Program-made: the position numbers and the translations under genes
Origin: Macrolepiota albuminosa
Lineage: Eukaryota > Basidiomycota > Agaricomycetes > Agaricales > Agaricaceae
Direction: 5' to 3'
NCBI GenBank assembly: GCA_027475525.1
Contig: JAMWFC010000056.1
Span: forward strand, 496,001 to 560,000
DNA: 64,000 nt
The notes under the pieces: generated by a model
Database searches by the model: none
What the model saw: only the letters and a program-made list of their open reading frames with translations
Told to the model about the DNA's origin: nothing
Part shown: piece by piece, positions 12,662 to 39,367 of the stretch
How positions within the stretch are numbered: position 1 is the first letter of the stretch
Layout: every line of letters begins with the position of its first letter

Positions 12662-13611
12662 TGATAGGACCCTATACAGGTTAGGCGCATCAACGGCAGG
12701 CTCGGCACCGGCTCCGGAAACCTTGCCGCATTCGTTCCGAACTTAGCGCACGCGTTCTACCCATTTTAAGCCATTTCTGACGGCCGCGCACGGCAAGAAG
12801 CAGATCCAATCAGTGATAGCGCCGATCGGCAGCAAGAATGACAACTGACAGATGGCATCAGTCACTGACGACAGCGCTTAGCGAGAAGCTTGATGATCTA
12901 TCAAAAACTGACGGACAGCTTGGCGTTTGACCTTGGCGTCTGACACCGCTTACCGTCTCGATTTGGCGCCCAACGTCGCTTAGGTGTTCTGACAGACAGA
13001 AGGGTGATGGAGTGATGGTTTAGCTTCGCGATCTGTCGCCTGGCGTCGCTAAGGCTCTTGAATGGACGGTAGGGATCTGAAACCGTTGGAGCTACCCCTT
13101 TGAAATTTTCCAGTTTACCGCACTCTGGCGTCATTAGCCACTGGCGACGGTGAACTCCTTGTAGTATATATATTACTTACCGACTTGTACATACAGCAGC
13201 AGAACAATAGACCACAGTTTACTCCCCTTTCCTCAGTCTCCCTTACGCTCAAGAGCTCATTTACGCTACAGTCGGCAACGTCGAACTCATCGGTAGTTAC
13301 AGACGCTCGCCAACACTCGACACACTCGTGCCTTGCAACTACGGCAGGCATTATCGACGCTTAGACTTCGCTAAGCTTACCGTGCTCTTGCCGCTTACCT
13401 TTGCCGTGTTCGCTTACCGCTCTTTCCTAGGCGCTTTACCTTAGCGCTTTACACTTGCCGACCCCGTTACCGACTTTTACCCTTTTTCACAGATGCGTTC
13501 TCTGGGACCTGCCCGGGACTCCTCAAATCACTTATAGCGCGCCCAACGCACACTCTTGGTACGGTAACACTCCAGTTACATTTGTTACTGACCAAACTTT
13601 GGGCGTCATCA
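12662..13611 (+). repeat. 5' LTR of the Gypsy element
   Basis: 950 bp, begins TGATAGGACC and ends CATCA. It contains a TATA-like stretch at 13165-13175. It is dense in TTACCG, TTGCCG, TTAGCG and TTGGCG: six such hexamers fall within 13381-13500 alone. Confidence 0.92.
13165..13175 (+). promoter_or_regulatory. TATA-like box in the 5' LTR
   Basis: A run tatatatatta inside the LTR, repeated at the same place in the 3' LTR (about 13520 + 10 kb). Likely the core promoter for the genomic RNA; inferred from sequence only. Confidence 0.4.
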
Positions 13612-13612
13612 A

Positions 13613-13631
13613 ATTGGAGCCCACCGCGAGG
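13613..13631 (+). promoter_or_regulatory. Candidate primer-binding site
   Basis: Just downstream of the 5' LTR end, after two or three bases, the sequence TTGGAGCCCACCGCG begins with TGG, as expected for pairing with a tRNA 3' CCA end. The tRNA was not identified. Confidence 0.4.
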
Positions 13632-13991
13632 GATCTCTAGGGCAGAATTCCGCCAGAAACCCGTCTCCAGCGTAGGCGCCGCCTGCTAGACCAGTCGGCA
13701 GAAGGCATAGCTCCTTCCCACCCATCAACCCCACAACCACCTGGTGCCTTACCGGGTCTCTCTCTAGCCCAGGAACTACAGAACGCCACTGTAGACGCTT
13801 TTCCTGATCTCTTCCCGCATTCCCTCGATTACAGTGCCGACGACCCCTTAGCGTCGCCATTTACCGTACCGCAACCAATCACCCCCATTACTCCGCTAAC
13901 GCCTCTTTCACAACTCATTTCTCTTACCCCGTCGCCAATTTCTAGAACTCCTTCCCCACTACCGCTAACCGAACTCGCCAACACAGTCGCT

Positions 13992-16304
13992 ATGGAACAA
14001 CAAGTCCAACGCATGCCGCCACGCAACCACTTCTCGGCACCGAAATGGGACGAGACCAAGCCACGGGAGCTCTCCCAGTATTTCAAGGAATTGGAGTATT
14101 TATTCAGAGATTGTAACATTACCGACCACACGCAGATGAAGGAGTACGCGGCAAGATACGTATCGTATGACACGGCAGAGACGTGGACAGGTCTTACCGA
14201 GTTTGCCGCCTTTGTCCCTGCCGCACCGCCAGCTCCAGCCCAAGGCGCTTCGTATGAGGACTGGAAGACAGCAGTGATCCAGCTGTACCCTGGCGCCGAG
14301 GAGGCTACCCGATACACGGTAAACGAGTTACAGAAACTAGTACAGGAATCTTTCGACAGTGGCACATCGTCGCTTGGCGCATTCTCTACATATTACCGCG
14401 AATTCCAGAAAGTCGCTAGGTGGCTTCTGCAGAACGGCAAGCTCTATATTAACGAGGAGCGTCGCCTATTTCAGCAGGGCATCCCGACTTCACTGTGGAC
14501 GCGTATTGCTCGTCGCCTAGAGATAGTTCATCAGGCTCATCACCCAGACGAGCCCTATAACGTTGCCGACGTCTTTGAAGCCGGTAAATGGGTTCTCAAG
14601 GGAACGGACACTGGCGTTGGACTGCAGCGCGCTAGGACGAGCCCACCCCCTGAGCGAACTAACGGTATCATTCCCATCCCGCCTCCTGTTGCCGACTTCG
14701 TTAAGAAAGAAGAGCTCAATGCTGCTATTACCGCCGCTGTCGCCTCCGCGATGACACGTATCGAAACTATGATTACCACCAACCTGACTGCTAACCGACC
14801 CGCTAACGTACCCGCACCTGGCCCTTGCCACTTCTGTGGGGAAATTGGCCACACCATGACTAGAGGACGCTGCGCTACCCTCGAGAATTACGTTCGCCAA
14901 GGTAGAATTCGACGAGCTATCGACGGCAAGATAGTCCTCACCACTGGCGCCACCATCCCCAACTACCCAGACAAGAAGTCCTTCCAGGAGCGAGTTGATG
15001 AATGGCATAGGCGCAACCCAGGACAAATCGTTACCGGCACGCTATCTGGCAACGCTAACCCCGACCCCGAACAGGCGACCCAACAGCAGATGATTCACGA
15101 GGTCCTACATTTCGACAGCGTTGGCGACCACCCTACTTTCTCGCGGGAAGAGCGTATCGCCAAGCTGCAGCAGGAATTAGATTCGCTAAAGAACCAGGTC
15201 TTTGATGGGGTTGAAGTTAAGCAGCCTAAACAACCTCTTAAAGGATACAAGCCAATGCCTCCCGCTAGCAAGTTACCGACACCTGCTCCTGCCGCACCTC
15301 CTGCCACTGCCCCTGCTCCTGCCTCAGAACCACCGTCGTCCGCTACCGCTCCCGACCCGCCTTTGCCGCCTCTCCATCCCTACTCCGGGATTCCCGACCG
15401 TTATCACGCTCCCGCACAACGAAACTTTGCCGCTCCCGAGAAACGTCCTGAGGGTGGCTACCGACCTACTGCGCCAATATTCGATATCGAGAAATCCAAC
15501 CACGTCTTTAACCGCATCATGAAAACCAATGTTACCTTATCAGTAGAAGAGCTTTGTAGTATTGCTCCCGACGTCCGCAACCAAGTCAAGACGGCAGTCA
15601 CTCCTCGACGACCCTTGGCGACAGCCGTTGCCGAGGTTGATGAACTCGACGACGCGCTTCCTGGTTTCTCTGTTACCATCGACTCTCCCGACGCTGAAGA
15701 TTCTCCAGCCGACTCCATCGCTAACGCCACCTCGGTGGACCCAGTAGAGACCTACCTTAGGTCTGTAGACCATGGAGAGGACCCCGCCATTCTTACCGTC
15801 GCTCAAGAATCGCATGCTATCCGCTCGGTAGCGCTAACCGTAGACAACAAGCACGAAGTAGAGGCAATCGTGGATAGCGGGTCTCAGATTATTTCTATGG
15901 CAGCAGAAGTCGCTAACGATCTAGGCCTCATTTACGACCCTACCGTTATACTAAATATGCAGAGCGCTAACGGTACGGTAGACAGATCCCTAGGCCTCGC
16001 CAAGAATGTGCCGTGCACCCTTGGCGACATCACGTTTTATCTTCAGATCCACATCTTACGTTCACCAGCTTACGACCTACTACTGGGCAGACCCTTCGAC
16101 GTCTTGGCGCGATCAGTCGTCAAGACAGTTACCGACGAGGAAACGACCCTCACAATTAGCGACCCCAACTCCGGAATCCGACGAACGGTGCCAACGTTCC
16201 CTAGGGGACAACGAAAAGGCGCCCGCGCTAAGCCCCCGGAGTTTACCGACCAACACGCCAACGAGCCTCCACACCGGTGTTTTCACAGACCATCGAGGAG
16301 GTGA
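13992..16304 (+). CDS. Gag polyprotein with retropepsin-like protease
   Basis: 770 codons. The N-terminal half is a helical capsid-like domain (SAPKWDETKPRELSQYF near the start). A zinc knuckle of the form CX2CX4HX6C occupies residues 279-294 (CHFCGEIGH..). A long Pro/Ala-rich linker follows, then an aspartic protease core with DSG at residues 628-630 and a second conserved patch ending LLLGRPF. The protein would assemble the particle and process the polyproteins. It overlaps the pol frame by 28 nt, and pol lies in the -1 frame. This fits either -1 frameshifting or re-initiation at the pol ATG at 16277; the sequence does not decide. The ORF is intact. Confidence 0.9.
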   Translation: MEQQVQRMPPRNHFSAPKWDETKPRELSQYFKELEYLFRDCNITDHTQMKEYAARYVSYDTAETWTGLTEFAAFVPAAPPAPAQGASYEDWKTAVIQLYPGAEEATRYTVNELQKLVQESFDSGTSSLGAFSTYYREFQKVARWLLQNGKLYINEERRLFQQGIPTSLWTRIARRLEIVHQAHHPDEPYNVADVFEAGKWVLKGTDTGVGLQRARTSPPPERTNGIIPIPPPVADFVKKEELNAAITAAVASAMTRIETMITTNLTANRPANVPAPGPCHFCGEIGHTMTRGRCATLENYVRQGRIRRAIDGKIVLTTGATIPNYPDKKSFQERVDEWHRRNPGQIVTGTLSGNANPDPEQATQQQMIHEVLHFDSVGDHPTFSREERIAKLQQELDSLKNQVFDGVEVKQPKQPLKGYKPMPPASKLPTPAPAAPPATAPAPASEPPSSATAPDPPLPPLHPYSGIPDRYHAPAQRNFAAPEKRPEGGYRPTAPIFDIEKSNHVFNRIMKTNVTLSVEELCSIAPDVRNQVKTAVTPRRPLATAVAEVDELDDALPGFSVTIDSPDAEDSPADSIANATSVDPVETYLRSVDHGEDPAILTVAQESHAIRSVALTVDNKHEVEAIVDSGSQIISMAAEVANDLGLIYDPTVILNMQSANGTVDRSLGLAKNVPCTLGDITFYLQIHILRSPAYDLLLGRPFDVLARSVVKTVTDEETTLTISDPNSGIRRTVPTFPRGQRKGARAKPPEFTDQHANEPPHRCFHRPSRR

Positions 16305-19300
16305 TTGGCGACGATCACGGAGATGTGGCGCTAACGCTGGAATATGACCATTCAACTGGTCTTGTAAATATTTTGTCTACCGCATATCTTGACAAAGAAG
16401 TTTTACTTTCCTCGACCGTTACCGACGCTGAGCTTTCTCAGAAAAACCCAGATATTACCGACTCAGCTCTAGCGTACTTATATCTTACCGCCTCTGAATC
16501 GTTTCAAAATATAGCGTCTACCGATACTTATCTCACCACTCTCCCCGGAGCCTCGCCTCCTGCCGTTCTTGGACTTGCCGCTCCTCAGGCTACAGTTCCC
16601 CTTTCCACATCTGTGTATAACCAAGCTAACGCTCCCAAAAGGAAAGGGGTTCAAGTTAAAAAGAAATATAAGCCAGTTGCGCTTAAAACAAAACCCATCG
16701 CTACGCACTCTCCCGAGACTTTCAGAATCGAGCGCCAGATCATTGGCGACCCTCTTGCCGACATGCCGGCCTTATCACCGAATCCGCCACCCTTTCAGCC
16801 CACAGGACGTTTTACCGAGGAACGCCAACAGCAGTTCGCCAAGGAGCACGACACAGGATTTTTGACCAAAGATGAGTTAAACGTCCTTACCGATCTTGTC
16901 GCTAAGCAAGACAAAGCCTTCGCTTGGGAGGACTCCGAACGCGGCAGCCTACGTACAGATTTCTTCCCGCCTGTTGTAATCCCGACTATTCCTCACGTGC
17001 CGTGGACTGAGCACAACCGACCGTTACCGCCTGGGATCGAAGCCGAGGTCTGTCAGATTATTAGGACTAAGATACAGGCTGGCGTCTACGAGCCCTCAAA
17101 CAGTTCTTACCGCTCCCGTTGGTTCTGTGTCCTCAAAAAGAACGGCAATCTACGCATAGTTCACAGTCTTGAGCCGCTGAATAGAGTAACCATACGACAC
17201 TCTGGCGTACCGCCTTTCCCTGACCACTTTGCCGAGTCCTTTGCCGGGCGCATTTGTGGCGCCACCCTTGATCTCTACGTTGGCTACGACGAACGTCTGA
17301 TACACCCCTCTTCCCGGGATCTCACTACCTTTCAAACTCCGTTTGGCGCCTTGCGCCTAGTTACCTTGCCGATGGGCTGGACAAACTCAGTCCCTATATT
17401 CCATGATGACATTACCTTCATCCTCCAACCCGAGATACCGCACCATGTCCTTAGCTTCATTGATGACGTTGGCGTCAAAGGTCCCAAAGACTGGCGACTC
17501 GTTAACGGCTTACCGGCGACCCATCCCGAGAACCCCAACATTCGCTTAGCGCTATGGGAGTTTTTCTTGCTGCTCAATCGAGTTCTCCAGCGCATGAAGT
17601 ATAGCGGTGGTACCTTTAGCGGCCACAAGCTCCTTCTTTGTGCGCCAAGGTTCAAAATACTCGGTCACATATGCACTCCCGACGGTCGCGTTCCCGACGA
17701 GTCTCGCTTAGCACTCCTAGAGCGATGGGGTCCTTGCCGCGACTTATCTGAAGTTCGCGCCTTTCTTGGCACCGTTGGCGTTCTGAGGATATTCGTCAAG
17801 AACTTTGCCCATCGCGCACATGCCCTTAACCGACTCACCCGCGCTAACGAGCCCTTCGAATTTGGGCCAGACCAGGTCACTGCCCAACGCGACTTAGTAA
17901 AAGCTCTGCAGGACGCCAAGCCCCTAGTTCCCATCGACTATAGCTCTGCCGACCCTGTTATCTTGGCGGTGGATACCTCGTACATTGCTGTTGGCTACTT
18001 CTTGTGCCAGTGCCTTAGCGACAATCGGAAACAGCGACGCTACAACCGCTTTGGGTCTATCACGCTAAACGACAGAGAGTCTCGCTACAGCCAGCCTAAG
18101 CTAGAACTCTATGGGCTCTTCAAAGCCTTCCGGTCGCTAAAGATGTATTTGATTGGCGTACGGAACCTTATCGTTGAAGTCGACGCTAGGTACATCAAAG
18201 GCATGCTGCAGAATCCCGATATCCAGCCATCCGCTAGCATGAATCGGTGGGTAGTCGCTATCCTCATGTTTCACTTTGAGCTGGTACACGTCAAGAGCTC
18301 TTTCCACGGCCCAGATGGACTCTCTAGGCGACCACGGCAGCCTGGCGACCCGGCAGTGGACCCACAGGCTGATAGCGATTTCGAGGACTGGATCGACCGA
18401 CTACATGGTTTCGTGCACCTCATTCAACAGCCAATTCCCTTACTACGACGGCAACAGCCTACCAGCATCCTGTTACATCCCATAGTCCCTTACCGCCCCG
18501 AGACCTTTAGCGCACCCCTCACGTTCTACACGGCAAGCATCCACAGTCAAAACTTGCCTCCAGTAAAAGTCGTACAGGAACCTCAGTCGCTAAGAGAAGA
18601 CAGCAAAAACCTGACCTACGATGCCGTTCCCCGATCCGCCAAGGCAAAGGCGGAAGACAGTCGCCTGTTAGTAGTTGAGCAATGGATCCAAGACCTTAAG
18701 CGACCCCCAGACCTTACCGACGAACAATACGCTACCTTTATCCGCTATGCTACCCACTTCTTCTTTACCGACAACCGACTTTGGCGACGAAATCGAGATG
18801 GCGCACACAAGCTGATCATCAAGCCAGAAGGTCGTTTACGAGTCCTGCGCGCCATGCATGACGAGCTAGGACATAGAGGTCTGTACGCTACTCGAGCCTC
18901 TCTGTTAGAACGCTTCTGGTGGCCACACGCTAGTGCCGACATCGCCTGGTACATTAGGACTTGCCACCTCTGCCAAATTCAACAGACACGCCAAGTGCTC
19001 ATACCGCCAACCGTTGCAACGCCAGCTCCCCTCTTCAGCAAAATCTACGTCGACACCATGCATATGCCCAAGTCTGGTCGCTACAAGTACATCATTCAAG
19101 GTCGTTGCTCGCTAATCCACTGGCCTGAATTTCGAATGCTCCAGAGAGAAAATACCGACGCGGTCGCCAAGTGGATATTTGAGGACATCATCTGCCGTTG
19201 GGGAGCGCTAAGAGAGATCGTCACGGATAATGGTGCGCCCATCATCAAAGCGCTAACATATCTCGCCAAGAAGTACAACATTCATCACATTCGAGTATCT

Positions 19301-20026
19301 GGCTACAACAAGCGCGCCAATGGCCTGGTAGAGAGACCCCACTTTGACGTTCGGCAAGCGCTCTTCAAGGCAGTCGATGGTGACGAGTCTCGTTGGAGCG
19401 AAGCGACCTATTCAGTGTTCTGGTCGGAAAGAGTTACTATTCGTAAGCGCATGGGTTGTTCTCCCTATTACGCGGCTACTGGCACCCATCCGTTACTCCC
19501 TGCCGACATTATAGAAGCGACATATCTTCAGCCAGCGCCCAACAGTATCTTAGCGACTACCGACCTTGTCGCCAGACGAGCTATTGACCTCCAACGAAGG
19601 AAAGAAGATTTGGAGCGACTTCATGAAGTAGTCTTTAGCGCCCGTCGCCAAGCAGCCCTGCGATTCGAGACCGAGCATAGCGCTACCATCAAAGATTACA
19701 ACTTCCCGAGGGGCGCGCTAGTGCTTTTGCGCAACTCCAAAATCGAGACCTCATACAATAAGAAAATGCGCCCGCGCTATCTAGGACCCTTGGTAGTTAT
19801 CTCTCGTAACCGTGGAGGCGCTTACGTGCTCTGTGAATTAGATGGTTCAGTACTACATCGACCTGTTGCCGCTTTTTGCCTACTGCCATACCTCGCTAGG
19901 GAACAAATCGACTTGCCGCTGGAAGCGCTAGATATCGACACCGCCAAGCTGAGAGAACTTGAAGAAACCGAGCTATTGGACGATGATGACTTGCCGACTT
20001 TAGTTGAAGAAGAAGAAAACGATTAG
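16277..20026 (+). CDS. Pol polyprotein: reverse transcriptase, RNase H, integrase
   Basis: 1249 codons, no internal stop. RT is marked by FIDD at residues 394-397 and by LPMGWTNSV before it. RNase H follows (ILAVDTSYIAVGY). The integrase has an HHCC zinc region (HDELGHRG.., CHLCQ) and a DDE triad at D926 (VDTMHM), D984 (VTDNGAP) and E1019 (GLVERPH). The D-E spacing of 35 is that of retroviral-type integrases. The C-terminal part has a GPY/F-like module (RPRYLGPLVVI). No chromodomain is seen, unlike the Gypsy element at 32.7-39.4 kb. All catalytic residues are present, so the element could be autonomous and active. Confidence 0.92.
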   Translation: MFSQTIEEVIGDDHGDVALTLEYDHSTGLVNILSTAYLDKEVLLSSTVTDAELSQKNPDITDSALAYLYLTASESFQNIASTDTYLTTLPGASPPAVLGLAAPQATVPLSTSVYNQANAPKRKGVQVKKKYKPVALKTKPIATHSPETFRIERQIIGDPLADMPALSPNPPPFQPTGRFTEERQQQFAKEHDTGFLTKDELNVLTDLVAKQDKAFAWEDSERGSLRTDFFPPVVIPTIPHVPWTEHNRPLPPGIEAEVCQIIRTKIQAGVYEPSNSSYRSRWFCVLKKNGNLRIVHSLEPLNRVTIRHSGVPPFPDHFAESFAGRICGATLDLYVGYDERLIHPSSRDLTTFQTPFGALRLVTLPMGWTNSVPIFHDDITFILQPEIPHHVLSFIDDVGVKGPKDWRLVNGLPATHPENPNIRLALWEFFLLLNRVLQRMKYSGGTFSGHKLLLCAPRFKILGHICTPDGRVPDESRLALLERWGPCRDLSEVRAFLGTVGVLRIFVKNFAHRAHALNRLTRANEPFEFGPDQVTAQRDLVKALQDAKPLVPIDYSSADPVILAVDTSYIAVGYFLCQCLSDNRKQRRYNRFGSITLNDRESRYSQPKLELYGLFKAFRSLKMYLIGVRNLIVEVDARYIKGMLQNPDIQPSASMNRWVVAILMFHFELVHVKSSFHGPDGLSRRPRQPGDPAVDPQADSDFEDWIDRLHGFVHLIQQPIPLLRRQQPTSILLHPIVPYRPETFSAPLTFYTASIHSQNLPPVKVVQEPQSLREDSKNLTYDAVPRSAKAKAEDSRLLVVEQWIQDLKRPPDLTDEQYATFIRYATHFFFTDNRLWRRNRDGAHKLIIKPEGRLRVLRAMHDELGHRGLYATRASLLERFWWPHASADIAWYIRTCHLCQIQQTRQVLIPPTVATPAPLFSKIYVDTMHMPKSGRYKYIIQGRCSLIHWPEFRMLQRENTDAVAKWIFEDIICRWGALREIVTDNGAPIIKALTYLAKKYNIHHIRVSGYNKRANGLVERPHFDVRQALFKAVDGDESRWSEATYSVFWSERVTIRKRMGCSPYYAATGTHPLLPADIIEATYLQPAPNSILATTDLVARRAIDLQRRKEDLERLHEVVFSARRQAALRFETEHSATIKDYNFPRGALVLLRNSKIETSYNKKMRPRYLGPLVVISRNRGGAYVLCELDGSVLHRPVAAFCLLPYLAREQIDLPLEALDIDTAKLRELEETELLDDDDLPTLVEEEEND

Positions 20027-20240
20027 AAAAGAATATTATTGATAAGCTCCTTTTTCTATTACTTACTTTACTTATCTTTCTTGCCGGTACTTACTATACT
20101 ATATTCAACAGACAATTTCTTACATAGTCAAGCCGCAGCGCTAGCGTGTCGCCAACGCTTGGCGCCTTGCGCAACTCTCGCCAAGGGTTTTTCGCTATGA
20201 TGATCTACTGAGCGTTTCCCTTTTTCTTCAAAATTTGTCT

Positions 20241-20394
20241 AAGTCCCTCACCTACTACTCTTACTAAAACCTACCTTACAAGGCTTACCCGTCCACTCTG
20301 CAAGGAGGCGGCAAAAAAAGTCCCTCACCTACTACTCTTACTAAAACCTACCTTACAAGGCTTACCCGTCCACTCTGCAAGGAGGCGGCAAAAA
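20241..20394 (+). repeat. Perfect 77-bp tandem duplication between pol and the antisense gene
   Basis: Copies at 20241-20317 and 20318-20394 are identical over all 77 bp. The unit begins aagtccctcacc and ends in an A-run. It lies in the noncoding gap between the convergent pol and antisense genes, so no frame is affected. Confidence 0.95.
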
Positions 20395-20453
20395 TATATA
20401 TATATCGAACACGGCAATAAGAAACAAAGCGGCCTATCTACGCTAAGGTCCGC

Positions 20454-22846
20454 TCAATCACTGTCATCATCCAACGGCAAGGAACTATCCGACAACGGCA
20501 AAGAGGAGTCACGAAGTGGTAAAAGGTCGCCCGGCAAGATGTTGTTGGCGGTTTGCCAATCCATGGCGGCTTGGCAGTCGTCCTGGTAATCTCGCAGAAC
20601 GCGCAGGCTGCGCCCCAAGTTGGAGTAGCGCAAGCGAAGCGCCATGAGCTGTCCCCGCACTCGTTCCCGCTCCCGACTCATTGTGGCCTCCATCGTTGCC
20701 GCTCGCCTCGAATATCGCTCCAGCATCTCGCGGGGATTTAGCGCTACGACTGGATAAACGAGATCCTGCCCCAGCCACTGGAAAGCGTCGCCAGTGACCG
20801 TCGGCTCCGGCTGAGGGGTCCAGGCAGGATTAACCCTGGCGATGACGGGGCGTCTTGGCTCCAGCCCGGCAACATCCTCTGGATCTGACACCTCCCAAGG
20901 GGCGACGTTGCCGTAAGGCGGCAGCCATCGCCACTCAGGCTCCTCCCTGGCGACTCCTGCCGCCCCCTCACCCTCTCCCGCTACCACCTCCTCGTCGCCT
21001 TGGCGCTGCGTCGCCAAGGTTTCGTCTTCCTCCCCTTCAGCGTCCTCATCCCCTCCAGCTGCCGCTCCCTCTGCCTTCTCCTCCCCCATCTCGATGTCGG
21101 CGGGGGCCTCTTCTCGCTCCTCTTGTGGCGCCAAGTCGCCAGCTTCTTCCCGCTCTGCCTCCACCTGCTCCTCGCCAAGGGACCGTGCCGCCAAATGAAT
21201 AGGCGACAAGAGGCCACTTGGGCCAGCCTCTGAGTCACGAGGCGGGAGGCGACTAGCCGCCAACGCCTTCTCCAGGTCCTCCATTTCGGTGTCCTTTGGC
21301 GCTGGCGAGGGGGAAGGCGACGACGATACAACACGGGGGCGCTTTGCTTTGCCCTTCCCCTTGCTTGGGGAGGGGGCTTGTCGTTTTTCTGGGACCGAAG
21401 TCCCTTGGCGCTCGCCGGCGCCTCGATTGCCGACAGATTCCGTCCCATCCCCTTGGCGTGTCGGCAACGCCAAGGCGGCTCGTCCAATAGCTGCCATGCC
21501 ACCGGCAGCGACCTTCCGCTTCTGGCCCTCCACAAACTCCCTGGCCCTCCTCACCAAAACCGCGCGCGAAAATGTCTTCTCAACGAGGGCGTCTGGCGCG
21601 CCGCCACGCTCGCGACTTTTGGCCCCGTCGATGGTGCAAGCGCGCTTGAGGGCACCACAGCGATAGCAAGGCTGGGCCCCGGTCGGGAACCAACAGCCTT
21701 CTGGGTCGTTGTCGGCCCAGCACTTATCACACTAGCGCTACAAGTCAGCAAGAGACTAAAGGAGACAGAAATGTCGCTTACCGCCCCCCGAGCCTCCTTA
21801 AACGCTTGCCGGGTCGCCAAGGCAACGGTTTTCTTCCCCTTCATCTCCTCCATAACGACCCCGGCCTCCTGCCCCTCGTCAAGGACGGCCTCATCGCGAC
21901 GCGGCAAGAGCAGTCCCTTCAGCTCTTTGTCGTCGAAGCTAGACTGCGTGGGCGCCTAGACAAAACACGGTAAATAAAAATAATCAGACTTCCAAAAGAC
22001 CGCTTACCGCGTACTGGGGAGCCTTTCCCTTGCGAGACTTGGAAACAGTGGTTAGCGTGGCGCGGCAGCGGCAAGAGCAAAAACTCACTTTCTTCAAAGC
22101 CTTACCCGGCTTTACTGGGGAGCCCTTCCTGCTAGCCGGCAGTGCTGGGCTCTGTGCACTGCCGGCGCGCGAAACCTTGCTCTGTTCCCTGGCGACTGGC
22201 GCCTTCCCAGCGGCAACGTCCTCCATCTCTGCCGCCAATGCGGCCACTCTCTCTCTCTCCTCTAGCGCCCTGGTGATCTCACGGGCGTCCTGAGATATCT
22301 CCTCCTGCCTTGCCGCGACCTCCTCCGCAACCTGCATGCGCGCCAAAGGCGCCAACACCTCTTGTTTACTGTGTGGTGACAAGTCAGACCAAAGCTAAGT
22401 CAAAAATGGGTTAGGAATACTCACTCTGCCGCTGGCGTGCTTACCGTCATCGGCAAGGCACCAGACAAAATGTCCTCCAACTCGTCCTCGATCGTTGGGA
22501 CAGGCGGAGGCGCCTAGGAACCCAATCAGCTAGCGACACGGCAAGGACTAAAACAACTTACAAAACGAGAAAATGGCGCTAACCAGTCGGCGCCACGATT
22601 GTCGACGTACCGCGCCCGGCACCACTCCCGCACTTCAATTTCTCTGTCCCAGCCGACGCCAAGGACGCGAACTTCGTACCAGCGCTCCAACAACTTCATC
22701 ACGGCAACGACCAAGTTTGGAGGCGCCTCCGCGCCCACACCCTCGATGCGCCTAATGAAGTTGTTGGCCTTGTCGATGTAGGCAGAGGCAGCGTCTTGAG
22801 CCTCACGGGAGGGAACGGGGGGCGGAGTTGGAATGCGGAAAGACAT
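20454..22846 (-). CDS. Antisense transposon gene: predicted Cys-cluster DNA-binding protein, six exons
   Basis: On the minus strand six exons join in frame: 22562-22846, 22445-22513, 22089-22394, 22008-22037, 21782-21955 and 20454-21722. The introns are 48, 50, 51, 52 and 59 nt, all in phase 0, with donors GTAAG or GTGAGT and YAG or AAG acceptors. The product is about 710 residues. Exons 1-4 give a helical N-terminal part with coiled-coil-like Glu/Arg runs. At the start of exon 6 a cysteine cluster CX8CX8CX2CX6C appears (residues 289-317, ending PCYRCGALKRAC); its second half matches the CX2CX6C half of fungal Zn2Cys6 clusters. A basic Ser/Lys/Pro stretch (SPSKGKGKAKRPR), a long acidic region and a helical C-terminus follow. 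I infer a nuclear DNA-binding protein; no homologue was checked. The gene converges on pol and has its own TATA-like box. Confidence 0.75.
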
Positions 22847-22913
22847 ATAAATTTTAATTGAGCGCCAGGTAAAGATGGGGAGGAGAAACGAAGTCCACAC
22901 TTATGCGCCAGGA

Positions 22914-22920
22914 CTATAAA
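22914..22920 (-). promoter_or_regulatory. TATA-like box of the antisense gene
   Basis: Minus-strand TTTATAG lies about 70 bp upstream of the antisense start codon at 22846. It sits inside the element, so the gene does not depend on the LTR promoter. Confidence 0.4.
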
Positions 22921-23002
22921 CCAAATCTCAAGAACGCACGGGCCACTTGTCACAAAAACGGTAACGGTAGCCTTATTTGGTGACTGAGGACAGTCAATTT
23001 TT

Positions 23003-23016
23003 CAGTCGGGGGGAGA
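23003..23016 (+). promoter_or_regulatory. Polypurine tract
   Basis: A G-rich run (gtcggggggaga) directly abuts the 3' LTR at 23017, as expected for the plus-strand DNA primer. Confidence 0.7.
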
Positions 23017-23966
23017 TGATAGGACCCTATACAGGTTAGGCGCATCAACGGCAGGCTCGGCACCGGCTCCAGAAACCTTGCCGCATTCGTTCCGAACTTA
23101 GCGCACGCGTTCTACCCATTTTAAGCCATTTCTGACGGCCGCGCACGGCAAGAAGCAGATCCAATCAGTGATAGCGCCGATCGGCAGCAAGAATGACAAC
23201 TGACAGATGGCATCAGTCACTGACGACAGCGCTTAGCGAGAAGCTTGATGATCTATCAAAAACTGACGGACAGCTTGGCGTTTGACCTTGGCGTCTGACA
23301 CCGCTTACCGTCTCGATTTGGCGCCCAACGTCGCTTAGGTGTTCTGACAGACAGAAGGGTGATGGAGTGATGGTTTAGCTTCGTGATCTGTCGCCTGGCG
23401 TCGCTAAGGCTCTTGAATGGACGGTAGGGATCTGAAACCGTTGGAGCTACCCCTTTGAAATTTTCCAGTTTACCGCACTCTGGCGTCATTAGCCACTGGC
23501 GACGGTGAACTCCTTGTAGTATATATATTACTTACCGACTTGTACATACAGCAGCAGAACAATAGACCACAGTTTACTCCCCTTTCCTCAGTCTCCCTTA
23601 CGCTCAAGAGCTCATTTACGCTACAGTCGGCAACGTCGAACTCATCGGTAGTTACAGACGCTCGCCAACACTCGACACACTCGTGCCTTGCAACTACGGC
23701 AGGCATTATCGACGCTTAGACTTCGCTAAGCTTACCGTGCTCTTGCCGCTTACCTTTGCCGTGTTCGCTTACCGCTCTTTCCTAGGCGCTTTACCTTAGC
23801 GCTTTACACTTGCCGACCCCGTTACCGACTTTTACCCTTTTTCACAGACGCGTTCTCTGGGACCTGCCCGGGACTCCTCAAATCACTTATAGCGCGCCCA
23901 ACGCACACTCTTGGTACGGTAACACTCCAGTTACATTTGTTACTGACCAAACTTTGGGCGACATCA
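23017..23966 (+). repeat. 3' LTR of the Gypsy element
   Basis: 950 bp, same length as 12662-13611; differences include A for G near 23070, T for C near 23383 and A for T near the right end. Begins TGATAGGACC. Confidence 0.92.
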
Positions 23967-23973
23967 AATTATT

Positions 23974-24975
23974 TGATGACGCCCAAATTGCGCTAAGGTG
24001 CACTATCACTAGTACAGCTACTTAGTCAATATAGCTTTGGGCGCGCTAAGTATGGGAGAGAGTCCCGGACAGGTCCCAGAGAACGCACAGTAGGCAAGAG
24101 GTTGGTGGTAAGGAAAAGGGGTGATTGGCGCTTATTTAAGGCCCAAGAATGCGGCAAGAGTATGCTAAAAATCACCAATGAAAGGTGCTAAGAGGCGCGG
24201 GAAAGAGTTGCCAAGGAAAGGCGCTAAGGAGCGCGGGAAAGAGTCGCCAAGGAAAGGCGCTAAGGAGCGCGAGAGAGAGAGTCGCCAAGAAAAGGCGCTA
24301 AGGAGCGCGAGAGAGAGTCACCAAGGAAAGGCGCTAAGAGACACTGTAAAGGGGTCACTAAGAGGCGCTAAGTGTTAGCACCTAAAAGAGATGATAAAAT
24401 GACGAGATTGCTTAGCAGATCTAAGCGCAAATGCCTTGCCGTAGTTGCAAGACACTAAGAGATTGCAGACAGAAAGGGTGAGAGAGAACTAAAGCAGAGT
24501 CCCCTTGCCGACACGGTCAACAAAAGGGTAGTCTGTTGCGTAGGGTGACCAAAATGTTGGGATACAATCCCTACTGCCAAATTGATTGAGTACTACTAAC
24601 AAAAAGTAAGTATTTATATGTAAGTAAATGCCCTGAATTAAACTATATGGTGAAAAAGGTCCACAATCATGCTGTCGTTCTGAGTCGGCAAGAAGCTAAG
24701 CGACGTCAGGTGCTAAGGTGAAACTCCAAGCTGCCTGTCATAAAATACTTCATCATTCCTGCTGCCACCGGCTAAGAGCATCATGGGTGCCAAGTGTCTG
24801 TGTCCGTGTACGGCCCTGAAGGGTGAGTGGCAAGGTGCGGCAAGGTGTCAAGAGGAGTGCTAAGAATAGATGGTGCCATAAAGAGTGGTCCTGGAGTAAT
24901 TAGAGGCTCCAGCTGCGAGTTATTAACATAAAAATATGCAAAAATTAGCCTCTGGAGCGCTAAGACGTGCCGCTC
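23974..24975 (-). mobile_element. Inverted, diverged LTR remnant of a related Gypsy element
   Basis: Read on the minus strand, the segment ending at 23974 closes with GGGCGTCATCA like the LTR next to it. Further in, it keeps the block around gcgttctctgggacctg (plus 24070-24092). The two LTRs therefore meet tail to tail across a 7-bp spacer, forming a near palindrome at about 23951-23990. It also shares the CGCTAA/CGGCAA hexamers, the last near 24960. The right boundary is vague and the remnant carries no coding sequence. Confidence 0.6.
24181..24362 (+). repeat. Minisatellite, about five units of 36 bp
   Basis: Imperfect units beginning aaaggcgctaaggagcgcg and ending gccaagg, inside the inverted LTR remnant. 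Units differ by substitutions and small insertions. Each unit contains one or two CGSYAA hexamers. Confidence 0.8.
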
Positions 24976-24999
24976 CTGGTGGTCCCAGTGTGCCAATGT

Positions 25000-26482
25000 G
25001 AGGTGCTTGTGTTGGTGCTATCTGTGGTCATCTATAATGGGAGCTCATCAGCAGCACTTGCATGTCATCCATGATTGTATCGGCAATGGTGCTGCTGCTC
25101 CATTGGGCAAACATGGCATTCCTATGCCTGGTACCCCACACCCTGCTGGAAATAATGGCCTGGCAGTGTCTGGCCATGCTGCCTTGCATGCTCCTGGGGA
25201 GCATTTGCTTCCCAGTCATCATGCATCTGGCATTCTGGTGGGCGGCTCTGGCCTTTGTGCACTATCTATTTCTCCTGGCACCACTCCACCTTCATGCATG
25301 TTGCATGGTTTGCCCCTGCAGGTCGGTTGCTTGTTGTCGTCGGCAGACAAGATGTATCTGCATAAAGTGGTGAAGGCATTGGAACAGGGCATGTTTAAGT
25401 ATATCCCCCTTGATCTGTTGACAGATGAGATGTGTCGGTGGGCGGCCTGGGAGCCACCGCCTCCAGAATTATCCTTTGTTATTGTAAATGGGAAACTTCG
25501 ACTCCCTACAGCCTCCTTTGACACTATGCATGAGTCAAAGTTGACCTTCGATGAGTGGTTGGCAGCTCCAGACAATCTTGTGGGTGCGATGCATCTCCAT
25601 TTACAGGCTGACTCGGACAGCAGCTCTGGTGGCCGTGTTGCCAATGCCATTGCAGATTCATTTGCTGCTTATTTTGGCACCTCAAAGCCCACCTTAATGC
25701 GTGACTGGATTTCAGTTTGATTCTTGATTACGATCAGCATTTACGGGCATTGTATCTATATGAGTCGCATTCCTTTTAGATAGATACGTTTCAGCTTGAT
25801 ATTTGGCAGGAGTATGTGGCCATGCTGCATGCCAGTAGAGTCAAGACTTTGGATGGCAGACTCACCAAGATGGAGTCCTTTCTTGTGCATGGGAAGTCTT
25901 CCTCCTCCAAGTCTTGCAACACCATGCCCCGTTCAAAGTGTTTGTCCTGTGGGTCTCTTGAGCACAAACTCTTGGCCTGTTGTGCTGCCCCTCAGTTTCT
26001 CCAGTGTGACAGACGCTCATATTGTGCTCTGACTGGTGGCTTGGTCTGTTTTGCCTTCAATGGTTTCTTTTCCTGTGATTGAAGCTCCAAGTGTGTGCAT
26101 GCCCATGTTTGTTTCTTGTGCAGAAGTTCTGGCCATGGAGCACAGGCCTGTTCTGCTTGACAGTATATTTTCTTTATCCACACCGTTGATAGCTGATTGC
26201 TGGGAAAGTGCCTTGCATGCAGCTGGGGTGTTGGATCTCTTTGCAGAGGTACCAGAAGGCCTTCACAGCGGCTTTGACATTGGCATAGATTCTTTAGTTC
26301 TCTCTCGTTCCTTTTCTCCTCACAATCATTATCGGATGTCTGAAGCTCACAATTTTGTTATTTTCAAATATAGTTCTGAGGTGGCCCTAGGCAGGATTTT
26401 GCCTGATTTTGACCCTGCTCTTGTTGAAGATTTGTTTGGCCCTTTTAGAACAGCTCCTTGGGTAAATTACATGTTACATTAG
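25000..26482 (+). pseudogene. DIRS-like gag/Cys-rich and N-terminal RT region, frameshifted
   Basis: A frame from about 25300 to 25720 encodes a capsid-like region (KVVKALEQGMFKYIPL, FDEWLAAPDN). After a frame change, 25816-26082 adds a zinc-knuckle-like CLSCGSLEHKLLAC and a second Cys-rich stretch. 26170-26460 encodes ADCWESALHAAGVLD and RTAPWVN, found just before the RT palm in DIRS-type elements. At least three stops or frame changes break it. This is the continuation of the element that starts at 11430. Confidence 0.6.
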
Positions 26483-32717: not shown

Positions 32718-33235
32718 TGTAAGGGCGACCTCTAGAGGCTGTGGCTCAGTCACACAGCTGGCAGAGGGAGATCCAAAGTGTATTAGAATATATACTGACA
32801 ATATCAAGGTAGCTACTCACCTGGCAGAGGGAGATCCAAAGAGAACAAGTCTGGGGATTCCCTATGCCAGGTTGGACGCTTCTGGGGCCTCTGAAGCATG
32901 GGAAACAACTGTACAGTACAACAAAACCTTAAAAACTCGAAAATTGACTAACCAAACAAGTGTGCAAACAAGGGAGGAAAACTCCGGACTTTAGAAGTCA
33001 GAAAGGCAAACTCTGGCTTATCTAAGCAGCCTGGAGCGGTGCTGAAGGGCCCACACTTGTCTGAGTGATAGCTAAAGAACCAGAGCACCTCAAAGGTTGA
33101 GAATAGTACTAACAGATAGTGTTGAAAAAGTAGTAACAGCAAGATGAGAGAATGATAGAAGAAATAAGGAAGTGAATGAAAGGAGAGTGAAGAAATAAAG
33201 AGTGAAAGAAGAAAGGAATGAGGAGTCCCCTGACA
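32718..33235 (-). repeat. 3' LTR of the chromovirus
   Basis: 518 bp. In element orientation it starts TGTCAGGGGACTCC and ends CCCTTACA. Confidence 0.93.
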
Positions 33236-33250
33236 TCACCCCCCCTCTAG
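33236..33250 (-). promoter_or_regulatory. Polypurine tract of the chromovirus
   Basis: In element orientation AGAGGGGGGGTGA directly precedes the 3' LTR. Confidence 0.7.
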
Positions 33251-36200
33251 AGTGCGGCGTCTCGACGTGCTGGATAGAAGTAGTTCTGGATGGCCTGGTC
33301 TACTTTGGAAAGAGAATAGAGGCCTCTGATTGCCCGAGGAGCATTGGGATGCTGTTGATAGAATTCCTGGACCAAGGCAGGGGCATGGACATTCTCTTGT
33401 GGCTCCCAGGAAACGTCCTCAATTCCATAGCCCTTCCACTTGACCTTGAACTGAAGCTTATTCCTAAAGAGTCGGCTGTCTAGGATCCGTTCCACTTCGT
33501 ACTCTTCTTGGTTGTTTACCAGAACTGGTGGTGGAGGTGGCTGTGGACGTCGACCTGGGATTGGATCCTCTGGGGCTGGAGAAAGCTTCACCACATTGAA
33601 GACTGGATGGAGTCGACTCATTCCACTAGGCAGCTTGAGTCAATAGACAAGTGGGCCTACCTGTCTTACTATAGGAAAGGGTCCTAGACGACGGTGAGAG
33701 AGCTTCTGAGAAGGTCGGGTAGTGGCAATGTCAGAGGCATCCAGGTAGACTCGATCTCCAGGCTTGTACTTAGGGGCTGGAGTTCGTCCACAATCGTAGT
33801 AGCGGGCCATGTCATCCTTTGCCTTAGCTAAAGCTGCCTTGGCTTCCTCCTGGGCTGCCTTCATCCGATCTATGAACTCGTTGACAGCTTCATTCTCTGA
33901 AGGTCGTCCACGAGGCTCAAATCCCATCCGAGGATGTCAACCAGTATCTAGAAGGAAAGGAGACATCTGGGTGGCAGCATGTACACGGTTGTTGTACTGG
34001 AACTCTGCCTCTGGTAATAGATCGTCCCAGTCATCCTGTCGTTCATTGCAGAAGAGCTGGAGATACTGTTCTAGCTCCTGGTTGACACGCTCAGTCTGGC
34101 CATCAGACTGGGGGTGGTAGGCTGTGGAAGTGTGGAGTTTGACATGGAGGAGGCGATACAGTTCTCTAGTAAACTCTGCCACAAACTGAGGTCCGCGGTC
34201 CGAGACATAAGCATCTGACAACCCATGGAGCTTCCAGACATGCTTCCGGTACAGATTGGCTGCGCCCATGGCTGAGCAAGTAGTGTGTGTTGGAATAAAA
34301 TGAGCACGCTTGCCACAGAGATCCACTACCACCATGATCGCATCATATCCATGAGAATCAGGTAACTCAACAATGAAGTCTACCGAGGCCACACTCCAAC
34401 GCTCAGCTGGGATAGGCAATGGATGAAGCTGTCCCACAGGAGGCTGACGACGAGGCTTAGTCCGAAGGCAAAGATCACAGGTGGAGGTGTAAGAGCCAAT
34501 ATACCGTGACATTTGAGGCCACCAGTAATTCCGCGAGACCAGCTCCAGTGTCTTCCATCTGCCAGAATGTCCTGCAACTCAAGAGTCATGATGCTGCTCT
34601 ACAATCCACCTCCGGAGGTCTGGCAGGTTGGGAACATAAATGCGTCCCCAGAAGGTGAGAAGACCATTCTCCAGAGACCACTCGTCAGTGCGGACAGACT
34701 TCACTCCAGTTTTCTCTTGAGCATGCAAGGCCATGGCAGCCTTAGCTACCAGATCTTCTTGAGCGCCCTCCCGGTTACCTCGTCAGATGTCTCGAAGGAT
34801 GCTCACTTCTTCTCCCTGGCCAACCACACCTTCTAGAGCACGGATAGCAAACAGTTCTGGCTTCAGAAGTACAATATTGTCATTGTCACTAGCTCCTGAA
34901 CCATGGTCTGCTCGCCTAGAAAGCGCATCTGGCTTACCCATGCTCCGTCCAGGTTTGTGATGCAGAGAGAAGTCGAAGTTGGCCAGATACAAGGACCATC
35001 GAGCCTGTCGGCGGTTAAGTTTCTTGGCCGTCCGAAAGTACTCTAAGTTCTTGTGATCAGTCCACACCTCAAATTTATGCCTGGCACCCTCAAGGAAATG
35101 TCGCCACTCCTCAAATGACCGAATGATAGCTAGCATTTCCTTGTCATGGATCTCATAATTTCGCTCCACGGCATTGAGACTCTTGGAGTAGAAAGCCACG
35201 GGATGCCACTTACCATCCTCCCTTGACTGTTGAGAGAGAACGGCCCCAGTAGCAAAATCTGAGCTATCAGCTTCGACACGGAAGGGAGAGTCATCATCTG
35301 GGAATATAAGGACAGGCTTTGAAGTGACTGCCTGTTTGAGGGCATCAAAGGCTGTCTGCTGTGCTGCATCCCAGTGCCAAGGAGTGTCCTTAGTGGTGAG
35401 ATCGAAGAGGGGCCAGGCATGATGTGAGAAATCCTGAATAAACCTCCGGTAGAAGTTGGTAAAACCCAGGAAGGCCTGAATCTCCTTCTTGTTCTTAGGC
35501 TCTGGCCACTCCGCTACACCAGCCACCTTGACTGGGTCCATCTCAGCCATTCCATGAGAGATGATCAGTCCAAGATATTCAACCTTAGTCTGCTCAAACT
35601 CGCACTTCTCTGGCTTAAGATAGAGCTGGTGCTGGCGAAGACGTTCCAGTACGATGCGCGTAATCCGACGATGCTCCTCTAGAGTCTTGGTATAGATGAG
35701 AATATCGTCAAGGTATACGCACACAACACCTTCTGCTATGAGGTCTCGGAAAATGTCGTTCATCATGGTCTGGAAGGTGGCAGGGCTATTAGTGAGGCCA
35801 AAGAACATTACCAGAGGTTCAAAAAGTCCACGATTTGTTCGGAATGCTCCCTTCCACTCATCTCCTTCTTTGATGCGCACATTGTTGTAGCCTCAGCAGA
35901 CATCCAACTTGGTAAAGTAGTGCGCACCTCGGAGGTTGTTGACAAGCTCTGAAATGAGTGGTAAGGGGTAGCGATTCTTCACAGTCATCACATTCAAGAC
36001 TCGGTAGTCCTGAACCAGACATAGAGATCCATCCTTCTTCTTAATGAAGAAGACTGGAGAGGCCATCGGAGACTTTGAGGGATGGATGCGACCAGAGTCT
36101 AAATTCTCCTGCAAAAAGGCATCAAGCTCATCCTGTTCTCTGGGAGAGAGTGGGTAGACCTTGCAGCTAGAGGGCTCAGCATTGGGTGTAAGCTCAATTG

Positions 36201-37305
36201 CATGGTCCCACTGCTTACGCTCTGGCAGGGAGTCGAATGATGCCTTAGAGAAAACATCCTCAAAGTCTTGCAGGTGATGAGGAACCGCATCTCGGAACGA
36301 CTTAGGAGCAGAGTTGGCAGCAAATGCCTGAGCTAGCCGCTGGGAGGTAGTTTGGCTAGCTCTAATCTCTGCTACAGTTGGTGGAGGTCGTAACGTAGTT
36401 GCATAAATCCTATCACCTGTCTCGATAGCCTTGTCTGGAGACTCTGGGTCAGGAGCACATCCAAATTCACCCTCGTGTCCATCTTCCATCTGGGCTTCAC
36501 TCACTACACCTCGAACGTCCTCATAGAGGGCCTCTCTATAAGGGAATGCCAAGGGAGGAGGATCCAGTAGGTCGAGGTCTGCAAAGGGGAGGTGTCCAAC
36601 CCGGCAAGCCCAGATAGCAGCACGCTCACAGACTGACTCTCTGCGCTCCTCTCTAACTTTCTTGGCACATGTGGAACACCATCGAGGGCAGCGGCTCATG
36701 CTCACCTTACCCTTGGCCCAGTCAATCTCAGGATTGTGATCACGCAGCCAGGAGAACCCAAGTATCATGTCCTGCTTTCCTAGGCTGGTAACCGCAAAGA
36801 CTGCACGCTCAGAATGAGTCTGATAACGAAGGACTAAATCCACCACTGAGCGGATGGATCCAGCTTCATTGAGCGTACCGTCAATGTTGTAGACTGGAAT
36901 AGGGTGAGAGAGGGGACGGGTAGTGAGCCGGTGTTGTTCCACATAATGGGTGTCTAGGAAGAGTCCAGTAGTGCCACTGTCCAAGAGAGCTATGACGCTT
37001 CGAGTCTGCTGAGTGTCAGTTGTCTCAATCTCCACATTCAGACGCAGAGAGTTGGGAGAGGGAGTAGAAGCAACAACATAGCGACGGGGAAGGCGTTGTT
37101 CCCAAGCTGGGACACGTGGTCGTCGGACAGGAGAAGGAGGGGAAGGAGTCTTAGCTGAGGCTTGGACCAAGGGGGTATTTTGTACGTCGGAGGGGGTGCT
37201 TACAGTTTCAGTCAGAGAATCAGGAACAGGGAGCGATACATTAGAAGACTCTACTGATTGACATGTAAACTGATTAGCACCAGGCGGCGGAGGCATACAA
37301 CTCAT
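33247..37305 (-). pseudogene. Chromovirus pol: protease, RT, RNase H, integrase, chromodomain
   Basis: One frame with five TGA stops (35893, 34783, 34579, 33937, 33640, lowest base of each codon). In order: aspartic protease DSGTTG near residue 108; RT with FIKKKDGSL and YLDD (within CVYLDDILIYT); RNase H (RVEADSSDFATGAVLS, then TDHKNLEYF); integrase with VDFIVELP, VSDRGPQF and QSDGQTERVNQ; and a chromodomain (EEYEVERILDSR.. VKWKGY..VSWEP) at about 33350-33515. Where family alignment memory allows, stops sit at expected Trp (TGG to TGA) or Arg (CGA to TGA) positions. Chromodomains steer integration to heterochromatin marks. Confidence 0.88.
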
Positions 37306-37313
37306 CCGTTGCT

Positions 37314-38656: not shown

Positions 38657-38729
38657 AGAAGCAACAGAGGGGCAGGGAGTAATCCAGTGGGGGAGGGACC
38701 TAAAGGGGCAAGAGAGGGCTCAAGCAGGC

Positions 38730-38770
38730 TGAAGGGGGCTCTCAGACCAAAATGTAGAGACTTGTTCTGC
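38730..38770 (-). promoter_or_regulatory. Region after the 5' LTR with a possible primer-binding site
   Basis: In element orientation a TTTGGTCTGAGAGC stretch lies about 18-30 nt after the LTR. It resembles initiator-tRNA type sites (TGGTATCAGAGC) but is offset from the LTR edge, so it is tentative. Confidence 0.25.
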
Positions 38771-39365
38771 TGTAAGGGCGACCTCTAGAGGCTGTGGCTC
38801 AGTCACACAGCTGGCAGAGGGAGATCCAAAGTGTATTAGAATATATACTGACAATATCAAGGTAGCTACTCACCTGGCAGAGGGAGATCCAAAGAGAACA
38901 AGTCTGGGGATTCCCTATGCCAGGTTGGACGCTTCTGGGGCCTCTGAAGCATGGGAAACAACTGTACAGTACAACAAAACCTTAAAAACTCGAAAATTGA
39001 CTAACCAAACAAGTGTGCAAACAAGGGAGGAAAACTCCAGACTTTAGAAGTCAGAAAGGCAAACTCTGGCTTATCTAAGCAGCCTGGAGCGGTGCTGAAG
39101 GGCCCACACTTGTCTGAGTGATAGCTAAAGAACCAGAGCACCTCAAAGGTTGAGAATAGTACTAACAGATAGTGTTGAAAAAGTAGTAACAGCAAGATGA
39201 GAGAATGATAGAAGAAATAAGGAAGTGAATGAAAGGAGAGTGAAGAAATAAAGAGTGAAAGAAGAAAGGAATGAGGAGTCCCCTGACAGCGAAATAAGGA
39301 AGTGAATGAAAGGAGAGTGAAGAAATAAAGAGTGAAAGAAGAAAGGAATGAGGAGTCCCCTGACA
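38771..39365 (-). repeat. 5' LTR of the chromovirus, lengthened by 77 bp
   Basis: 595 bp. Identical to 32718-33235 apart from one base (A at about 39040 versus G at about 32989) and the perfect 77-bp tandem duplication at its outer end. Confidence 0.92.
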
Positions 39366-39367
39366 GC
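39214..39367 (+). repeat. Perfect 77-bp tandem duplication across the chromovirus LTR edge
   Basis: Units 39214-39290 and 39291-39367 are identical. The unit includes the last bases of the LTR plus two bases (gc) of the target duplication, so the copying happened after insertion or during assembly. Confidence 0.95.

Follow-up and report, generated by a model that had tools for sequence, protein, structure and literature searches.

A short word maintained throughout a fungal Gypsy retrotransposon, and a conserved antisense gene whose product may read it

The DNA considered here, referred to below as the window, is a stretch of 64,000 nucleotides from Macrolepiota albuminosa (GenBank assembly GCA_027475525.1, contig JAMWFC010000056.1, positions 496,001 to 560,000, forward strand). 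Positions 12662–23970 are occupied by a Gypsy retrotransposon filled, on both strands and in coding and long terminal repeat (LTR) DNA alike, with the word TTRSCG, which reads CGSYAA on the complementary strand. This word is read as being under purifying selection on the DNA sequence as such, and the element also carries, between pol and the 3′ LTR, an antisense gene conserved in most of its copies. It is quite possible, if somewhat short of probable, that the antisense protein reads TTRSCG, most likely for an anti-silencing purpose resembling that of the VANC proteins of plant transposons. The features concerned are listed below (ORF, open reading frame; pLDDT, predicted local distance difference test).

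12662–23970, both strands: 197 TTRSCG/CGSYAA sites (107 forward, 90 reverse; 5–12 per 500 bp)
20454–22846, minus strand: antisense gene of six exons (22846–22562, 22513–22425, 22368–22089, 22037–22008, 21955–21782 and 21731–20454), encoding 711 amino acids
21636–21731, minus strand: cysteine cluster CX2CX8CX8CX2CX6C, which occupies exon 6 from its first codon onwards
20547–20735, minus strand: long C-terminal helix (exon-6 residues 333–395), likely a coiled coil, in an AlphaFold2 model (block pLDDT 84–96)
13641–16304, plus strand: gag and aspartic protease ORF, with Pfam matches to DUF4100 and gag-asp protease; 46 TTRSCG sites
16232–20026, plus strand: pol ORF, with Pfam matches to RNase H and the integrase H2C2 zinc domain; 58–59 TTRSCG sites
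12662–13615, plus strand: 5′ LTR, 954 bp, 22 TTRSCG sites
23017–23970, plus strand: 3′ LTR, 954 bp

The original prediction had described the element as saturated with one short motif family on both strands, and this proved to be an understatement. TTRSCG occurs once per 57 bases (175 sites in 10,355 bp with the second LTR set aside) and ranks first among 138,240 hexamers with two degenerate positions, with a z score of 33.1, whereas none of 50 Markov simulations yielded more than 6.03. The four hexamers that TTRSCG comprises have similar counts (59, 54, 43 and 41) and lead all hexamers in over-representation. When codons were shuffled with the proteins and codon usage kept, the observed number of sites exceeded the shuffled number by a factor of 4.1–5.4 (46 versus 9.6 in gag, 58 versus 10.8 in pol and 33 versus 8.0 in the antisense coding sequence). 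The remainder of the window (50.7 kb, without 12662–26000) has 46 sites. A second Gypsy element, on the minus strand at 33161–39366 and with a YLDD reverse transcriptase motif recognised by eye, contains a single site over 6,206 bp, where about 4 would be expected, and serves as a negative control.

In the window copy, the sites are spread fairly evenly, with a dispersion of 0.26 at 500 bp, a value matched by 2 of 5,000 random placements. This evenness varies with bin size (P = 0.01 at 250 bp, 0.004 at 750 bp, 0.018 at 1000 bp and 0.20 at 1500 bp) and is weaker in seven other copies (P = 0.02–0.12 at 500 bp); the largest gap between sites is 310 bp, versus 335 bp expected by chance. Direct pairs of TTRSCG 13 bases apart are over-represented in the window copy (at 12920–13420, 13848, 13963, 15615 and 19251), and genome-wide the direct pair with a 7-base gap was found 4,279 times, versus 57 for a reversed-pattern control, many of these pairs being copies of one another. 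A preferred spacing of 13 bp, possibly that of a dimer, was considered and rejected: the 12 direct pairs fall to 8 if the 3′ LTR copies are excluded, whereas the antisense-gene representatives have none and five other elements have 2 between them.

The maintenance of the word was followed in copies of the element. A search of this genome at the DNA level with the antisense gene gave at least 47 matches (the best 40 of 532 candidates), 79–100% identical, the larger of which are mostly full length; 38 copies were fetched and aligned with the window in 39 rows. These copies were fetched through the gene itself, come from one genome, assembled to 100 Mb, and are related to each other. Among 60 pattern families (TTRSCG and 59 permuted patterns that keep the CpG), compared in 207 pairs from 21 representatives of the antisense region, TTRSCG ranked first for exact retention (0.656) and for gain from near-matches (0.079, the direction being unpolarised), and was lost least often (0.306). 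Fourfold degenerate sites were compared with motif positions taken from a third copy and silent sites scored in other pairs, which avoids selecting positions by their own conservation. For pol, with 10 of 18 aligned rows used and L013, L014 and L028 excluded because of their length, 4.5% of such sites differ inside the word and 17.7% outside it, a ratio of 0.255 that lies below all 58 usable controls. In exons 1 and 6 of the antisense gene (14 of 39 rows), the values are 16.7% and 37.8%, and the ratio of 0.443 lies below 57 of 59 controls. Third-party divergence over all sites of pol (12 rows) is 0.019 in the motif, versus 0.062 overall, and the one control of 59 that is lower shares a word with the motif. 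Given this slowed change at fourfold sites inside the word, TTRSCG is maintained at the DNA level, and is therefore read as being under purifying selection for its DNA sequence.

Between more diverged copies the sites turn over. Copies L047, L048, L050 and L051 have an antisense exon 6 that is 54–56% identical to that of the window by BLASTP (60–61% by MAFFT), with DNA about 66–68% identical to the window gene. Over 2.3 kb they contain 32, 29, 29 and 31 sites, respectively, and share 12, 15, 14 and 10 site positions with the window copy; roughly half to two thirds of the sites therefore lie elsewhere, with the density kept. A more distant relative, L049 (C101:185500–187750), in which the cysteine cluster is changed to CDKCWSENDPEGCWFPTASLPCYRCDALKRGC, has 15 sites, 2 of them at window positions, and thus a weaker enrichment. 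A changed code, YTASCG, was considered for L049 and rejected as not significant, 14 of 100 simulations having given an equal maximum in 2.3 kb.

A word of this kind could have been made by mutation bias, gene conversion or base composition, with no reader at all. The copies share descent, and conversion or recombination is likely among them, since two given elements can be more alike in one part than in another. Transitions dominate the differences between motif and non-motif (T/C at position 1, C/T at position 5 and G/A at position 6), as CpG decay would give; in pol, the 24 single-base differences fall on the four fixed positions (1, 2, 5 and 6), and transitions are again the commonest. However, the 109 distinct single-base differences in the antisense region involve all six positions and include transversions, which a single mutation bias cannot make. 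The codon shuffles and nearly all the CpG-containing controls fail to reproduce the effect, and density is kept in the elements with about 66–68% DNA identity, in which 14–21 of 29–32 sites occupy other positions. An origin without a reader is, consequently, regarded as very improbable.

The second component of the system is the antisense gene, for which the coordinates and the six exons originally predicted are correct (ATG at 22846, stop at 20454; introns 22561–22514, 22424–22369, 22088–22038, 22007–21956 and 21781–21732). Its frame, lying antisense between pol and the 3′ LTR, is open throughout in 28 of the 36 copies that are complete, the partial rows L044–L046 (L046 has a 100-N gap) having been set aside; three of the eight copies that are not open (L014, L025 and L039) have a 77-bp duplication inside the frame. 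Across the 39 rows, 22 of the 27 distinct exonic indel events are multiples of three, and the five exceptions are three 77-bp duplications, a 361-bp deletion (L044) and a 5-nucleotide event offset by a 2-nucleotide shift of the intron-3 acceptor. By a tally from the alignment, 4 of the 23 intronic events are multiples of three. A GTRAGY donor is present in 184 of 187 intron copies, and all 187 end in AG. The ratio of non-synonymous to synonymous substitution rates (dN/dS) has a median of 0.108 (range 0.068–0.190; dN 0.067, dS 0.615) in 105 pairs from 15 intact representatives, drawn from 21 at 97% identity. Values near the cysteine cluster (0.04–0.05) are among the lowest, and those of residues 147–239 (0.25–0.32) are the highest. 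The loss of the frame or of its cysteines, with a dN/dS near 1, had been named beforehand as the outcome that would speak against the prediction; the frame and the cysteines are both kept, at a dN/dS far below that value. Judged from this conservation, which also points to the splicing, the antisense gene is a real gene under purifying selection.

Its placement is equally regular. A search of the genome with pol gave 81 matches (the best 81 of 3,921 candidates) that are 96–100% identical, the 80 besides the window being 96–99% identical. A scored antisense-type gene lies within 4.5 kb of 34 of the 81, and in all 34 it is downstream and on the opposite strand; the antisense candidates scored were the best 40 of 532, 76 of 2,118 and 70 of 2,370, and the remaining 47 pol matches are uninformative. 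The suggestion that homologues always sit antisense in Gypsy elements thus holds for the 34 checked in this genome, and outside it the relatives found by the protein searches described below, which reach proteins of similar length sharing exact words, were all from Termitomyces. A recently captured host gene, or a chance antisense frame, either of them functionless for the element, would fit the absence of named homologues. It is contradicted by the 28 open copies, the low dN/dS and the exonic indels in threes, and also by the antisense position in all 34 cases checked and by the presence in the genome of more than 2,000 word-level candidates, mostly unscored; this explanation can scarcely be entertained.

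The cysteine cluster of the window protein, CDKCWADNDPEGCWFPTGAQPCYRCGALKRAC, is identical in 31 of 39 rows. The cluster is present as predicted, but the five-cysteine form in which it was first described, CX8CX8CX2CX6C, omits the first of six cysteines. The six cysteines and several further residues of the cluster do not vary among the window protein and nine relatives. The basic Lys/Arg-rich Ser/Pro stretch and the acidic region that had also been predicted are plain in the sequence. Database protein searches, which reach proteins of similar length sharing exact five-residue words and in two of three cases scored only the best candidates, found relatives outside this genome only in Termitomyces (at least 9, at least 13 and at least 15 proteins in overlapping sets, at least 22 in total). 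A sequence search of the PDB with exon 6 gave no match. AlphaFold2 predicted a confident 63-residue C-terminal helix, found in both models, and in P0001, a Termitomyces relative, a long helix at residues 128–197 that is confident in part. With these traits, the antisense product may resemble a DNA-binding, dimerising regulator.

A word found on either strand of LTR and coding DNA alike, with fairly even spacing, is best explained by a protein that binds double-stranded DNA and needs coverage of the whole element. The best explanation for the identity of such a reader would be the element's own antisense product, which is the obvious candidate; its binding to TTRSCG is given somewhat better than an even chance. 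The gene would encode a nuclear, dimerising DNA-binding protein reading TTRSCG (CGSYAA on the other strand), and the element would have been filled with this word throughout, by the choice of bases in coding and non-coding DNA, so that any copy would be recognisable by the protein of its family. The likeliest use, at one further remove and by analogy with VANC, would be escape from silencing, the bound protein keeping chromatin open or recruiting activators through its acidic region, rather than transcription, complementary DNA (cDNA) packaging or tethering.

Several observations weigh against this proposal. The link between protein and motif is a co-occurrence in elements that were chosen for carrying the gene, and the remnant just beyond the 3′ LTR (23971–26000), which may or may not carry the gene, bears 17 TTRSCG sites. 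Pfam gave weak, non-significant matches only for the protein, with no known DNA-binding domain recognised, and the cysteine region has a pLDDT of only 34–47 in the AlphaFold2 models. Two of 59 controls (one of which shares a word with the motif) fall below it in the fourfold test on the antisense gene, and the third-party divergence over all sites of the antisense region (19 representatives) is 0.109 in the motif versus 0.160 overall, a value undercut by 4 of 59 controls. The L049 pattern gives no support for co-divergence between protein and motif, as 14 of 100 simulations equalled it in strength. Finally, the motifs of VANC systems are mainly non-coding, in tandem and in the same orientation, whereas those described here are dispersed, on both strands and inside coding DNA.

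The word could instead be read by a host transcription or chromatin factor, by the Gag nucleocapsid or by integrase, the antisense gene being kept for an unrelated task. The motif is distributed across gag, pol and the LTR alike, without concentration at the antisense gene, and a CCHC-like knuckle can be seen by eye in Gag. A conserved reader would also fit L047, L048, L050 and L051, in which exon 6 is about 40–46% different while the motif is nearly unchanged, and the pol identity of 96–99% in the 80 other scored matches. The cysteine cluster, however, differs at only 2–3 of 32 residues in these same four copies, so that it is an equally possible reader. The single site in 6.2 kb of the second Gypsy element speaks against a factor that Gypsy elements in general would exploit, and the similar counts on the two strands (107 and 90) argue against the recognition of single-stranded RNA. 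Such a different reader deserves serious weight but is rather unlikely.

Binding of the word by the antisense protein might instead serve replication, through the coating or compacting of double-stranded cDNA, its nuclear import or the guidance of integration to existing copies. A fairly even spread of sites from end to end of the element (175 in 10,355 bp with one LTR) suits a coating protein more than a promoter factor, and some products of plant antisense ORFs are nuclear, a role in the pre-integration complex having been suggested for them (PMC7264820). The evenness is nevertheless scale-dependent and weaker in the seven other copies, and the largest gap is such as chance would give; the present evidence also fits a chromatin function equally well. 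A replicative role is considered decidedly unlikely.

The antisense gene and pol do not always share the same relationships. In elements C1, C105 and C126, pol is 97–98% identical to that of the window, whereas antisense exon 6 is only 54–61% identical; L009 is 99.6% identical to the window in the antisense region and 94.4% in pol, and L010 is 92.6% and 97.1% identical, respectively. Discordance of this kind was observed for L009, L010, L011, L047, L048, L051 and their pol neighbours. It suggests module exchange or assembly chimeras: unless the assembly misjoined copies, the antisense gene would therefore be a variable module swapped between pol backgrounds. Because elements with nearly identical pol carry far more diverged antisense genes, protein and code could diversify together. 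This leads to a bolder form of the proposal that the antisense protein reads TTRSCG, namely a self-written recognition code, in which the six-cysteine protein would coat most nucleosome-length stretches and shield its family from silencing, protein and code co-diversifying and elements of the L049 type shifting the code. This extended form is thought unlikely.

The element itself has two direct LTRs around gag and pol, as expected of Ty3/Gypsy. The LTRs (12662–13615 and 23017–23970) are 99.58% identical, and as they differ at only 4 of 954 positions the insertion is young. The original prediction placed the element at 12662–23966; the start stands, and LTR identity moves the end to 23970. The gag and pol ORFs, measured from stop to stop within 13641–20026, overlap by 73 bases in different frames, which suggests a programmed frameshift. 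The domains placed by Pfam, protease in the gag ORF followed by RNase H and integrase in pol, are as far as they go in keeping with the Ty3/Gypsy order protease, reverse transcriptase, RNase H, integrase; neither the reverse transcriptase nor the integrase core was matched by Pfam in the pol ORF, and the reverse transcriptase is presumably located by its FIDD motif. No target-site duplication is visible, the flanks TGCAG and AATTA not matching if the LTR is assumed to end in ATCA, and the 3′ flank resembles an inverted LTR end. Directly past the 3′ LTR, the sequence at 23971–26000 has this inverted LTR-like end and a 36-bp tandem array as well as its TTRSCG sites, and is probably an older relative.

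Some traits of the sequence seem to come from the assembly, including one further feature of the element:

20241–20394, no strand: exact tandem duplication of a 77-bp unit, located between pol and the stop codon of the antisense gene, a probable assembly artefact

Duplications of 77 bp are found in the window at this position and at 37493–37646, 39214–39367 and 42627–42780, at 17 of the 20 loci L009–L028, and at L039 and L049. Among tandem units with periods of 30–400 and at least 88% likeness, 52 of 53 have period 77, and 40 of these are exact; the exact runs reach 0–3 bases past 77, as by chance. In an assembly graph with k = 77, edge overlaps that are joined give duplications of period 77. 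A role for these duplications as a mutational defence was rejected on account of their unrelated positions, the chance-like extension of the runs and the fit to k = 77 graph edges, and they are most likely an assembly artefact. In copies L015, L016, L032, L033, L035 and L038, the end of the antisense gene is closely followed by a homopolymer of exactly 50 T (A on the opposite strand), perhaps a further trait of the assembly.

Three known systems invite comparison. The signature of the Zn2Cys6 domain (PF00172) is CX2CX6CX5-12CX2CX6-8C. The antisense protein has, in common with proteins of this class, six cysteines in a CX2C...CX2C arrangement, a basic flank, an acidic region and a helix able to dimerise, but there are 8 residues between its second and third cysteines, rather than 6. 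PF00172 was absent among 16 family members at E values up to 10, and for the window exon 6 at E values up to 1. The assignment to Zn2Cys6 was rejected on the spacing CX2CX8CX8CX2CX6C and the missing Pfam match. The original argument that fungal Zn2Cys6 proteins bind CGG-containing sites gains no support from the sites, of which 97 of 197 are of the CGG type and 100 are of the CGC type, without CGG. To our knowledge, sequence-specific anti-silencing by transposons is known mainly from the VANDAL elements of Arabidopsis. Some fungal DNA transposons reportedly carry TET/JBP genes, perhaps another route against methylation. A full-text literature search, with subscription papers mostly outside its scope, found no title or abstract opening describing a system like the present one.

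Antisense additional ORFs between pol and the 3′ LTR (aORF-3R) have been described in Grande, RIRE2, Retand and PvRetro13, and brtn of the Botrytis element Boty is a further case (PMC7264820, PMC8365987). The gene described here resembles them by description: it has the same position and orientation, is present in most copies and is conserved, and some aORF-3R products are nuclear. According to a review of 2020, the roles of such antisense accessory ORFs had not yet been determined (PMC7264820). The gene differs from them in its six exons and distinctive six-cysteine cluster, and its element in the motif that saturates it, a trait not mentioned for aORF-3R elements in the account given by that review (PMC7264820).

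The VANC proteins of Arabidopsis VANDAL transposons act in sequence-specific anti-silencing, for which binding and demethylation have been shown (Hosaka et al., 2017; PMC5735166). VANC21 binds YAGTATTAY, a motif concentrated in its own family and there chiefly in tandem repeats of non-coding DNA (PMC5735166, PMC10398659). The two systems share a transposon-encoded accessory protein with variable regions and a short motif that is strongly enriched in the family concerned and scarce in other elements, the density of targets being thought, for VANC, to confer specificity (PMC5735166). They differ in that VANC belongs to a plant DNA transposon and the present protein to a fungal LTR retrotransposon, and in that binding and demethylation are demonstrated for VANC, whereas the present element is known from its sequence. 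No relation to VANC at the protein level emerged from the searches, which gave only Termitomyces proteins and nothing significant in Pfam, no direct comparison having been made. The fungal system may work like VANC in its logic. In this fungal LTR retrotransposon, selection acts on one short word throughout, even at the fourfold sites of pol, alongside a conserved antisense gene. If the protein does read the word, an antisense accessory ORF would have a function, and self-recognition or anti-silencing would have evolved in retroelements.

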